From positions 1-33,887 of the forward strand of contig DXJL01000160.1 in the NCBI GenBank assembly GCA_019057635.1: a DNA stretch of 33,887 nucleotides, read 5' to 3'. Below, one piece after another: positions 10,223 through 14,626 of this stretch. The position numbers and the translations under genes were made by a program. How positions within the stretch are numbered: position 1 is the first letter of the stretch; each line of letters starts with the position of its first letter. This stretch comes from Candidatus Heimdallarchaeota archaeon. GTDB taxonomy: Archaea > Asgardarchaeota > Heimdallarchaeia > Hodarchaeales > Hodarchaeaceae. The notes beneath the pieces were generated by a model. It saw only the letters and a list, made by a program, of their open reading frames with translations, did no database searches and was not told the origin of the DNA.

Positions 10223-10341
10223 TTATTCTCCTTTTGAAAGAATTAAAAATGATTTTGACAAATTTAAAACCCATGTAAGAAATTACATTTGGCTAAAATA
10301 TGGCTAAATTGTCAATTAACAATAGTAAAAATGACAGTTTC

Positions 10342-10366
10342 GCCAATATTTATAAGCATAATTGGC
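10342..10366 (+). promoter_or_regulatory. Promoter of the tusA/dsrE cluster: TATA box inside an inverted repeat
   Basis: GCCAAT-ATTTATAAGCATA-ATTGGC; TTTATAAG at 10349-10356. Confidence 0.55.
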
Positions 10367-10551
10367 AAGTTTCGTCTTGAATAGTTTCAACGCACCTAAC
10401 CACTCTTAACTATCCGTAAGTAGGTATGAGAGATCATGCCTTCCTCTTTACGGAATTCCTCCTCAGAGTTTCAGAGATTTTGGGACTATTCTCTAATAAT
10501 GATAGTATTAGTGAAGAAACAATTTTTTTAACTTTTAAGGATGAAAATAAA

Positions 10552-10788
10552 ATGAGTGAAGTACACAAAACCTTAGATGCACGCAACTTGAGTTGTCCAA
10601 TGCCCGTTCTGAAAGCAAAAAAAGCTTTGAAAGAATTAGATATCGGTCTAGTGCTAGAAATTCTGGCAACTGACCCTGGTAGTATGGCTGATTTTCCTGC
10701 CTGGACTCGTTCCACAGGTCAAGAACTCCTTTCTTCGGAGGAACTTGGTCCAAAAGATTATCGTTTTTTAGTTAAAAGAATGAAATAG
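10552..10788 (+). CDS. TusA-family sulfur carrier protein
   Basis: TLDARNLSCPMPVLKAKKALKEL (Cys-Pro-x-Pro) ... ATDPGSMADFPAWTRSTGQEL; start set at ATG 10552 within ORF 10426-10788. Confidence 0.92.
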   Translation: MSEVHKTLDARNLSCPMPVLKAKKALKELDIGLVLEILATDPGSMADFPAWTRSTGQELLSSEELGPKDYRFLVKRMK

Positions 10789-10807
10789 AGTAAGAGATGG
10801 ATGAATT

Positions 10808-11284
10808 ATGAGTGAGGATAAACCGAAACGTATGGCAATTATTGCTGCAAATGGAACATTAGACGCTGCTTACCCTCCAGTTATTTTGGCATCAACAGCC
10901 ACTGCAATGGACATGGAAGTCGCAATATTTTTCACCTTCTATGGATTAGATTTGATCCACAAGAAGAGGAGCAAGAAACTCAAAGTGAGCCCAATCGCAA
11001 ACCCAGCTGCTCCAATGCCAGTCCCTAATATTATTGGTATGATCCCTGGAATGACTGCAATGGCAACCTGGATGATGAAACGCTGGATGAAAGGTGCAAA
11101 TGTTGCTAAATTCGTAGAATTAAGAGAAATGTGCCAAGAGAATGGGGTTAGATTTATCGGCTGTCAGATGACCATGGATGTCATGGGTGTCAAAGAATCG
11201 GATCTTATTGACGGTTGTGACCTCGGTGGCGCAGCTACCTTCTTAGAGTTTGCTAAAGATGCTGATATTACATTAATGATGTAA
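10808..11284 (+). CDS. DsrE/F-like (DsrE2-type) protein
   Basis: KRMAIIAANGTLDAAYPPVILASTATAMDMEVAIFFTFYGL ... RFIGCQMTMDVMGV. Confidence 0.88.
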   Translation: MSEDKPKRMAIIAANGTLDAAYPPVILASTATAMDMEVAIFFTFYGLDLIHKKRSKKLKVSPIANPAAPMPVPNIIGMIPGMTAMATWMMKRWMKGANVAKFVELREMCQENGVRFIGCQMTMDVMGVKESDLIDGCDLGGAATFLEFAKDADITLMM

Positions 11285-11322
11285 TATCTTCTAATTATCT
11301 TTTTTATCAGGTGGTTTTTATT

Positions 11323-11733
11323 ATGGGTAAATTTCTAATGGTATGTGATTCCGCAGCAACAGATAAACTTCAGACTTTAGCGATAATTGCTTCAGGTGCA
11401 GTAACAAGTGATCATGAAGTAGTCATTTTCTTTATGCATGACGCTGTTTACGCCTTGAAAAAAGATGCTCCTCCCGAGCCTGAAGTTACTAGTATCTATC
11501 CTGAAGTAGCTGAAAAAGTGAATCAGGCGAGAAAAGATGGCAAATTGATGCACTGGAAAGGGCTTCTTGAAGATTTGAAGGATTTGGGTGAACTCAGAAT
11601 TATCGCTTGCGTCCAAATCACGGAAATATTAGGCTTAGAGAAAGATGATCTCTTGCCTATGGTAGATGAAGTCGCAGGGGTGAATACTCTTGCTGAGCAG
11701 GCAATGCTTGCTGATAGGGTAATTTTTCTTTAA
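11323..11733 (+). CDS. DsrE-family protein
   Basis: GKFLMVCDSAATDKLQTLAIIASGAVTSDHEVVIFFMHDAVYAL ... IIACVQITEILGLEKDDL. Confidence 0.82.
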   Translation: MGKFLMVCDSAATDKLQTLAIIASGAVTSDHEVVIFFMHDAVYALKKDAPPEPEVTSIYPEVAEKVNQARKDGKLMHWKGLLEDLKDLGELRIIACVQITEILGLEKDDLLPMVDEVAGVNTLAEQAMLADRVIFL

Positions 11734-11754
11734 TAATCAAAGGTGAATAAAAAA

Positions 11755-11997
11755 ATGAGTAATGAAGTACAAGCAGATAAAGTCATGGATGCTCGCAACT
11801 CTTTTTGTCCAGGGCCGTTAATGGAGCTGATTAAATCCATTAAGAAAGGAGAAATTGACAAAGTTTACGAAGTCTGGAGTAAAGATGCAGGCTCAATAAA
11901 AGACATCCCAAAATGGGTTGAGAAAGCTAAACATCAAATGGTAGCCGTTATTGAAGAGAATGGTTATACTCGTTTTCAAGTAAGGAAGGCAAGATAA
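11755..11997 (+). CDS. Second TusA-family sulfur carrier (CPGP variant)
   Basis: KVMDARNSFCPGPLMELIKSIKKGEIDKVYEVWSKDAGSIKDIPKW. Confidence 0.88.
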   Translation: MSNEVQADKVMDARNSFCPGPLMELIKSIKKGEIDKVYEVWSKDAGSIKDIPKWVEKAKHQMVAVIEENGYTRFQVRKAR

Positions 11998-12028
11998 TTG
12001 TCTACCTTCATTTTCTTTTGGTGATATT

Positions 12029-13201
12029 ATGAGTATAGACAAATCTAAAGTTGTTATTTTAGGTGGGGGTACTGGTGGAGTTATTGTTGCTAATCTTCTT
12101 GGACGGAAAGCTAAAAAGCAAGCTGACGTTACATTAGTCTCTAAACAGGATAATGTTTTTTATGAAGCCGATCTACCCTACCGTATCTTTGATAGAAAGT
12201 CATTCAAGTCACAATATAAATCAGTTCGTAAGGTTGTGAATAATAACGTTAGCATTCTTAAGGAAGAAGTAGTCGGTCTAGATGTAGATAACAAGTCGGT
12301 TTCTTTCAAGGGTGGTAGTAGTATTCCTTATGATTATTTGGTAATTTCTACTGGAGCACACTATGATTATGATGCCGTTCCGGGGTTTAAAGAGGGTGCC
12401 TATCATTATTACAATGAAGAAGGTATCCATGAACTAAGAAAGGCATTGGATGAATTTGTGGAGCAGGGTAAGGGAGGCAACATTGTAATTGGAATTGCTG
12501 ATTTACCGTTTAAATGTCCTGTCGCTCCTCTTGAAGGAGTTTTTATGACGGAGCATTTCTTAAGACGCAAGAAACTTCGAAAAACAACAAATTTGCACTA
12601 TCTAAGTCCTATTGGTGGCGCGTTTTCTATTGAACAAGCCAATGTTCATATCGAGAAAAAATTTGCAAAGAAAGGTATTAATTTGCATACATTCTTTAAT
12701 ACAGAGACTATTCATACTGATCGCAAAGTTGTGGAATCTCTTGAAGGTGATGAACTGGAGTATGACCTTCTAATCATGGTTCCCCCTCACAGGGGGCAAC
12801 CGTTTCTGCACGGAACCCCAATAGTCGATTCAGAAGGATGGGTTAATGTGAATACAAAAACCCTCCAAAATGAAGATTATCCTAATGTCTTTGCACTTGG
12901 TGATGCAGCTAATCTCCCAGTGTCAAAAGCAGGATCATCCGCACATTATCAAGCAATGGCTGCAGCTCATAACTTAATAGACATCTTAAAAGGAAAGATG
13001 GACATTTCACAGGTGAAGGAAAGATATAATGGACATGCTACTTGTTTAGTCATGACTTCTCTAACTTCCGCAATGTTCTTTGATTTCAATTATAACCGTC
13101 CTCCATTTGGTCTTGGATACATCTCTAATCGGTTATTCTACTATATCAAAAAGTACCAGAGATTTCTATACTTCTATGGCTTCTTATCTGGCCGAATGTA
13201 A
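12029..13201 (+). CDS. FAD/NAD(P)-dependent oxidoreductase, sulfide:quinone reductase-like
   Basis: VVILGGGTGGVIVANLL Rossmann motif; PFKCPVAPLEG cysteine motif; NVFALGDAANLPVSKAGSSAHYQA FAD motif; hydrophobic/aromatic C-terminus. Confidence 0.85.
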   Translation: MSIDKSKVVILGGGTGGVIVANLLGRKAKKQADVTLVSKQDNVFYEADLPYRIFDRKSFKSQYKSVRKVVNNNVSILKEEVVGLDVDNKSVSFKGGSSIPYDYLVISTGAHYDYDAVPGFKEGAYHYYNEEGIHELRKALDEFVEQGKGGNIVIGIADLPFKCPVAPLEGVFMTEHFLRRKKLRKTTNLHYLSPIGGAFSIEQANVHIEKKFAKKGINLHTFFNTETIHTDRKVVESLEGDELEYDLLIMVPPHRGQPFLHGTPIVDSEGWVNVNTKTLQNEDYPNVFALGDAANLPVSKAGSSAHYQAMAAAHNLIDILKGKMDISQVKERYNGHATCLVMTSLTSAMFFDFNYNRPPFGLGYISNRLFYYIKKYQRFLYFYGFLSGRM

Positions 13202-13243: not shown

Positions 13244-13810
13244 ATGATAGATGAAAAAGACAAGCTGATTATCGAGTACTTTCGAAAACACCCACGCAGC
13301 TCTTTTAATCAAGCCGCAAAAGATTTGAGTTTGGCCAAAGGAACTGTAAAAGCGAGATTTGATGATCTTGTAGAAAAGAATCTTATTTCTCCTGGTGTTG
13401 GTCTTAACATCGCCCAGTTAAAGTTTTGTCATGCCCTATCATTCATTGAAATAACAAATCCAGATACAGAACAAGCAATTTTGGAGTATTTTCAGGATTG
13501 TCCATTAGTAACGGCAATGTTCTCTGTATCAGGTTTTGAGTACAATCTTGTCATTTGCCTGGTCGCTGATACACGCGAGAAGATCAGTAAATTTATTGAT
13601 ACTTTTCCTCTTAGTCCTCTCCCAGGAGTGAAGAGACGGAATAGTTTTTTCGTAAAAGAAACAGAAGGATTTGCTGACAATCCCTTTTGGTTTTTTGCCC
13701 CCCCTAAATCTGAAAAGAATATATTTGATAACCATACTTGTCAGAATCGTTGTGGGGTGTGTGGGGTCATTTCTCAGATACAGGTCGACGCAACAAATCA
13801 AGAATCATGA
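13244..13810 (+). CDS. Lrp/AsnC-type regulator with Cys-rich C-terminal tail
   Basis: DEKDKLIIEYFRKHPRSSFNQAAKDLSLAKGTVKARFDDLVEKNLISPG wHTH; tail NHTCQNRCGVCG. Confidence 0.8.
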   Translation: MIDEKDKLIIEYFRKHPRSSFNQAAKDLSLAKGTVKARFDDLVEKNLISPGVGLNIAQLKFCHALSFIEITNPDTEQAILEYFQDCPLVTAMFSVSGFEYNLVICLVADTREKISKFIDTFPLSPLPGVKRRNSFFVKETEGFADNPFWFFAPPKSEKNIFDNHTCQNRCGVCGVISQIQVDATNQES

Positions 13811-13839: not shown

Positions 13840-14196
13840 TCAGTAAGTAAATACTTGAGCGCCTACTGATTCAGTCAAGAGAGTGGTAGCACCAGCAAGT
13901 TTCACTCCTTCTATATAGTCTTCTTGATGGATCTCCCGAGCTTCTACACAGGGGACACAGGTGAAGACTCGTCCTCCCATTTCCATGAAATTTGTGATCA
14001 GTTCTTCAAGTGGGGTGAATGGGGGGAAGACCCAGCCTTTACAATAATCCTTGCGGACGACATTAACTCCTTCAGCTTGGAGAAACATTACAACTTCAGC
14101 GTCTAGTACGTGAGCAGCATTAGCAACTGCCCAAGCCATACTTGCTCGTTCAAAATTGTCGTGGCCATGTGTGGACACAATAACAAATTTAACCAT
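13840..14196 (-). CDS. DsrE-family protein with CxxC
   Basis: VKFVIVSTHGHDNFERASMAWAVANAAHVLDAEVVMFLQAEGV ... FTCVPCVEAREI; start set at internal ATG preceded by GAGGG. Confidence 0.85.
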   Translation of the reverse strand: MVKFVIVSTHGHDNFERASMAWAVANAAHVLDAEVVMFLQAEGVNVVRKDYCKGWVFPPFTPLEELITNFMEMGGRVFTCVPCVEAREIHQEDYIEGVKLAGATTLLTESVGAQVFTY

Positions 14197-14245
14197 TTTG
14201 TTTCCCTCTTCTTTGTTTTCTAATTTATTTTTACTAAGTGTTTGT

Positions 14246-14259
14246 TTTAGTCGACTAAA
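14246..14259. promoter_or_regulatory. Perfect 14-bp palindrome upstream of dsrE
   Basis: TTTAGTCGACTAAA. Confidence 0.55.
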
Positions 14260-14278
14260 CAATGATTTCCCTTACTTT

Positions 14279-14626
14279 CTAGACTGATGATTGTTCTTCA
14301 GATTCCTGTAAATTACAATAATGTTCTTTAATTCGATGTTGGATTGGTGATTTTGAGATCCGAGATAAACCCGGAACACAATTAATGGCTGCAAGACTTT
14401 CAGCCAATCCTTCATCACCCAGACAACATAATTCGACTAATAAATCATATTCACCAAAAATCTGATACAGCCGTTTTACTCCCGTAATAGGAGTTATTTG
14501 TTTAATGATTTTGTCGATATCTCGACCAGGTTCAGTTTGGATCATAAGAAGAAGATCACGAGAAAAGCCAAGTTTCCAGAGACGACTCAAGGGAACCATC
14601 TTTATTAAAACCCCTTTTTCTTTCAA
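14279..14626 (-). CDS. Lrp/AsnC effector-binding (RAM) domain protein lacking an intact HTH
   Basis: LKEKGVLIKMVPLSRLWKLGFSRDLLLMIQTEPGRDIDKIIKQITPITGVKRLYQIFGEYDLLVEL; TTG start. Confidence 0.78.
   Translation of the reverse strand: MKEKGVLIKMVPLSRLWKLGFSRDLLLMIQTEPGRDIDKIIKQITPITGVKRLYQIFGEYDLLVELCCLGDEGLAESLAAINCVPGLSRISKSPIQHRIKEHYCNLQESEEQSSV

Follow-up and report, generated by a model that had tools for sequence, protein, structure and literature searches.

A conserved TusA-DsrE-SQR operon in Heimdall/Hodarchaeota-group Asgard archaea with a predicted role in sulfide oxidation and persulfide handling

The window analysed here, the whole of a 33,887-nucleotide stretch of DNA, corresponds to contig C137 in a 92% complete Hodarchaeota/Heimdallarchaeia (Asgard) MAG of 3.19 Mb. 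Five co-directional genes occupy positions 10552 to 13201, identified from the ORF list and Pfam matches as a TusA with a CPMP motif, a DsrE2, a DsrE, a second TusA with a CPGP motif and an SQR-type flavoprotein, with intergenic gaps of 19, 38, 21 and 31 bp, in that order. The original prediction of five genes on one strand with short gaps is borne out at every coordinate (all gaps fall between 19 and 38 bp), as are the three motifs it singled out, CPMP, CPGP and PFKCPVAPLEG, and searches with the TusA, DsrE and Pyr_redox_2 Pfam profiles placed all five proteins in the families expected of them. Its picture of a compact five-gene relay needs one amendment: the SQR-type flavoprotein core, the conserved order and the invariant, predicted sulfur-carrying cysteines stand, but a sixth co-directional gene, encoding an Lrp-like regulator (13244-13810, + strand), starts 42 bp after the SQR gene and belongs with the others, the operon running on into it. 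On the opposite strand, convergent to the operon, lies the gene of a third DsrE-family protein, with a CxxC motif (13840-14262, - strand; Pfam DsrE, 52 bits), which is also found near the operon in genomes G002 and G010. It is followed by the gene of an AsnC ligand-domain protein (14279-14626, - strand; PF01037, 27.8 bits) that has lost its N-terminal half, a half kept by the 178-aa homologue in G002 (L143:2943-3476).

Each of the two TusA proteins contains a single cysteine, located within the CPxP motif of a recognizable TusA domain. In TusA1 (10552-10788, + strand; Pfam TusA, 85 bits) this is Cys15 of the CPMP motif, invariant in an alignment of 20 rows; the reading frame would permit a start at 10426, but the ATG at 10552 agrees with homologues. 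In TusA2 (11755-11997, + strand; 63 bits) it is the equally invariant Cys18 of CPGP. The DsrE2-type protein (10808-11284, + strand) scores 174 bits with Pfam DrsE_2, well over the cut-off, and 193.5 bits with NCBIfam NF047629, just under the curated cut-off of 210. Its Cys119 is present in 100 of 100 homologues whereas Cys109 occurs in 45% of relatives, leaving a single invariant cysteine where DsrE2A of the Dahl scheme has two strictly conserved ones. DsrE2 of the A. vinosum type has two transmembrane helices; here the highest 19-residue hydropathy value is 1.47, and this crude test reveals no clear transmembrane segment. The neighbouring DsrE-family protein (11323-11733, + strand; Pfam DsrE, 41 bits) has an invariant Cys96 in its alignment, and its best PDB match is 2QS7, the Sulfolobus DsrE2B (PMC4175335). 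The gene linkage to SQR and TusA that characterizes DsrE4 is also found here, a likeness in linkage only.

The flavoprotein (12029-13201, + strand; Pfam Pyr_redox_2, 74 bits) contains no cysteines other than Cys163 and Cys339, both of which are kept in all complete relatives and align with the catalytic cysteine positions of human SQOR. By sequence, they are the predicted SQR catalytic pair, as expected of the SQR/FCSD sulfide dehydrogenases with their two redox cysteines. Consistent with this family, Pfam, a structural model and Foldseek all identify a Pyr_redox_2 fold with an FAD-binding N-terminus, while the FCSD_central Pfam score is slightly below cut-off. The AlphaFold2 model (pLDDT 88.5) finds human SQOR as its top Foldseek match in the PDB (TM 0.89), followed by the SQRs of A. 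ferrooxidans and Aquifex (TM 0.83) and by flavocytochrome c (0.76-0.78). A flavocytochrome c subunit was rejected as the first choice, since it ranks under SQR in both fold and sequence. An NCBIfam type III SQR model is matched by all 23 of the 23 relatives scanned, and the best NCBIfam model for the flavoprotein is NF049943, the selenoprotein subtype of type III SQR, with 306 bits against a curated cut-off of 525; a selenoprotein was nevertheless discarded, as the frame is intact with a cysteine, has no internal stop and scores far under the cut-off. Taken from sequence and model, the flavoprotein is most likely an enzyme of the sulfide:quinone oxidoreductase type, and through a C-terminal helix (residues 367-385) it might touch the membrane.

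To place the operon in a wider context, the flavoprotein and DsrE2 were each sought in the same 97 relatives, and the two resulting tables were matched by hand. Of the 97, 39 have the flavoprotein, and 37 of these 39 belong to the class of the studied genome. In 32 of the 37, a DsrE2 gene lies no more than 6 kb from it on its contig; in the other five (G008, G013, G035, G036 and G049) a contig end close to the flavoprotein gene cuts the locus. The order TusA-DsrE2-DsrE-TusA-SQR-Lrp is kept across the genus wherever contigs reach, the Lrp-like gene following SQR in every same-genus genome with a long enough contig, and further genera and families within the class show the first five genes in the same order. 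The five-gene order is therefore not confined to this contig; such confinement would have told against the original prediction. Rearranged versions also occur, with TusA-SQR-TusA-DsrE2-DsrE in family f5 and DsrE2-TusA-DsrE-TusA-SQR in one bacterial MAG (Pseudomonadota by record; locus L117), and TusA-DsrE2 pairs that are not accompanied by this flavoprotein are common in bacteria. The arrangement goes beyond chance: this is a conserved operon in Heimdall/Hodarchaeota-group Asgard archaea, with its own regulator. Vertical Asgard inheritance of DsrE2 was rejected on an 86-row tree, firm only in its genus clade, in which the Asgard rows require about five label changes, so that bacteria and Asgard archaea have probably exchanged the gene.

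In one Asgard genome, G042, TusA2 and SQR lie in one continuous 478-aa frame (L101:6996-8429, equivalent to L151:119-1552, - strand), an apparent fusion that gives a direct hint that the two proteins are partners. However, the linker, which includes a short tandem duplication, is low-complexity and rich in Lys, Arg and Glu, and an ATG of its own is retained by the SQR part, so the fusion may be an artefact of assembly or frame.

A candidate promoter (10340-10385, + strand) upstream of tusA1 consists of an archaeal TATA-like TTTATAA enclosed by an imperfect palindrome (GCCAAT...ATTGGC), with a conserved TTGAATAG after it. In an alignment of seven genomes of the genus, the TATA-like element and downstream TTGAATAG keep a constant upstream distance of about 200 bp from tusA1, in support of a single main promoter. 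A scan for sigma-70 promoters and terminators returned counts at chance level. The palindrome, a candidate operator, is clear in the studied contig and at locus L066 and degenerate in other genomes. The Lrp-like protein (HTH_24, 35 bits) has a weak AsnC domain and a C-terminal Cys-x3-Cys-x2-Cys tail (of the CQNRCGVCG type) that is conserved in the genus. It is likely to be a sulfur- or redox-responsive regulator; the tail itself might sense persulfide, redox state or metal.

We infer how the operon may work from its gene set, conserved order, catalytic cysteines, SQR fold and promoter-like element, all of them read from sequence, and the direction, quinone acceptor, transfer order, sulfur use, regulation and physiological role proposed here are those that would fit them. 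It is probably a sulfide-oxidising, persulfide-handling operon, in which SQR delivers electrons to quinone and passes sulfane sulfur to the TusA/DsrE carriers. A membrane-associated SQR-type enzyme would oxidise H2S at the Cys163/Cys339 pair beside the FAD, with two electrons going to a membrane quinone, and the sulfane sulfur left on the enzyme would be handed to the adjacent TusA2. From TusA2 the sulfur may move to DsrE and DsrE2, then to TusA1, and from there to cytoplasmic acceptors, either for biosynthesis or for an Hdr-type enzyme to oxidise further. Overall, sulfide would be removed and electrons gained, and the sulfur would stay bound to proteins as persulfide and not be set free as polysulfide.

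The genome encodes a complex I-like nuoCDHIJK cluster, which is compatible with a quinone pool. However, searches of the 92%-complete MAG found neither a terminal oxidase (COX1) nor NarG nor MqnA/MqnD, which counts against oxidation of sulfide by SQR in that both the quinone and the electron sink are hypothetical, and the anaerobic appearance that the missing COX1 and NarG lend the genome favours a relay running in reverse. In such a relay, thiosulfate, polysulfide or cysteine would be the source of sulfane sulfur that TusA and DsrE gather and bring to the flavoprotein, which would be a persulfide or polysulfide reductase that releases H2S, a reading in keeping with its weaker profile matches to CoA-disulfide reductase and with a YeeE-family sulfur transporter encoded beside TusA and DsrE/DsrH. 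Against it, SQR is the best match for both fold and cysteine pair, and by inspection a second nucleotide-binding glycine motif does not appear evident at the Cys163 segment. Quinol-driven sulfur reduction is moreover thermodynamically unfavourable with the usual quinones, and we regard the reverse direction as unlikely.

The transporter just mentioned belongs to a gene set on contig C8 (L182:6382-8899, - strand) that comprises TusA, the YeeE-family protein (Sulf_transp), two DsrE-family proteins and DsrH, with a DtxR-like gene adjoining. In all, the genome contains five TusA genes, six DsrE-domain genes, one rhodanese and 12 CCG-domain matches, so the operon is not the sole sulfur-trafficking machinery in the cell. 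Contig C64 (L184:5372-7051) offers another TusA-flavoprotein neighbourhood, where a pyridine-nucleotide-disulfide oxidoreductase-like gene comes after a solitary TusA (CPQP). The claim that hdr, dsr and rhodanese genes are missing consequently holds for the scanned proteins of the window, the DsrE genes excepted, and fails for the genome as a whole.

That scan of window proteins found no domain of an hdrC1B1A-C2B2 cluster, or of dsrAB with dsrC, as would mark sHdr or Dsr sulfur oxidation. The lack of dissimilatory partner genes in the window and of DsrC in 57 relatives would suit an assimilatory or detoxifying role of little energy importance, with sulfide captured and the persulfide feeding thio-tRNA, cofactor or Fe-S synthesis; in E. 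coli, TusA works in the thiolation of tRNA and in making the molybdenum cofactor (PMC4175335). The patchy distribution in the genus, where SQR and DsrE2 are both present in seven of 12 genomes and both absent from five, suggests such an accessory function. Yet these same five near genomes, having neither gene, indicate that basal thiolation can do without the locus, and two TusA and two DsrE proteins would suggest a dedicated flux; we consider a purely assimilatory or detoxifying operon improbable.

DsrC was found in none of the 57 relatives, and the CCG-domain genes that were examined revealed no sHdr cluster, so that a complete route of sulfur oxidation is not apparent, a further point against the sulfide-oxidation reading. 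The operon might still represent the first half of dissimilatory sulfur oxidation, with its sulfur handed to an Hdr-type complex encoded elsewhere, and tusA/dsrE genes do precede hdr in Sulfolobales (PMC4175335). In two relatives, G005 and G006, the operon and its Lrp gene are immediately followed by HdrC-HdrB genes (L145:4487-5853, - strand; L146:10344-11710, + strand), HdrC-HdrB-HdrA is found near the rearranged locus in L158, and in G002 a co-directional block of TusA, an MvhD-like protein and HdrA (L143:532-2693, - strand) lies near the operon. The HdrBC genes beside the operon in two relatives show that the lineage is not without an hdr link, but they look like ordinary HdrABC subunits, similar to those beside a hydrogenase-like gene of the studied genome, and not like sHdr C1B1A-C2B2, nor was a lipoate-binding partner noticed in passing. 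We regard a handover of this kind as very unlikely.

Sulfide oxidation by SQR with transfer to the carriers might also take a more specialized form, an Asgard-specific channel in which sulfur passes directly from SQR to TusA (fused in one genome) and into a chain of two DsrE and two TusA proteins, polysulfide never being released and the Cys-tailed Lrp regulator sensing persulfide. We put this forward tentatively, as it is doubtful in its full form; if true, it would give the archaeal group closest to eukaryotes a route for handling sulfide. The acceptor of SQR sulfane sulfur in archaea is an unsettled question, for which the SQR-TusA operon and the apparent fusion offer a testable protein candidate. 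More generally, the operon provides a concrete sulfide-handling system for Hodarchaeota/Heimdallarchaeia, the Asgard group nearest to eukaryotes. SQR in Heimdallarchaeota has already been reported (PMC11459464), and no paper naming Asgard, TusA and DsrE together was found in the literature searched, which covered few subscription papers. The parts belong to known families, and their fixed set in Asgard archaea is a new variation.

Of known systems, human mitochondrial SQOR is the best PDB match of the flavoprotein in both sequence and fold and shares its two-cysteine active-site layout. Identity is only 24-25%, however, and the PDB is unevenly sampled, so no special kinship is claimed; the Asgard partner would furthermore be a carrier set and not glutathione. 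The YTD cluster of sulfur disproportionators (PMC12998232) likewise combines TusA with DsrE, but the Asgard operon lacks YedE/YeeE and the conserved hypothetical genes, the YeeE-TusA-DsrE-DsrE-DsrH set being on another contig. Clusters of tusA and dsrE2 are widespread among sulfur oxidisers (PMC8551704), and both the (rhd-)tusA-dsrE2 clusters of sulfur-oxidising bacteria and dsrE3A-dsrE2B-tusA-hdr of Sulfolobales share with the operon a TusA beside DsrE2 and a further DsrE. Unlike these, the Asgard genes are tied to SQR, and the window has neither sHdr nor DsrAB nor rhodanese next to them. In the sulfur island of Metallosphaera cuprina, TusA (Mcup_1722), SQR (Mcup_1723) and DsrE4 (Mcup_1724) have consecutive locus tags (PMC4175335), so that in both cases an archaeal SQR gene adjoins TusA and a DsrE-family gene. 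The Asgard operon differs in its two TusA, DsrE2 and DsrE genes upstream in fixed order and in the Lrp-like gene after SQR, and its flavoprotein scores best with type III, whereas the Sulfolobales SQR of A. ambivalens is type V (PMC8551704). Given the Metallosphaera TusA-SQR-DsrE4 and tusA-dsrE2 precedents, the Asgard operon is a variation on a known theme.
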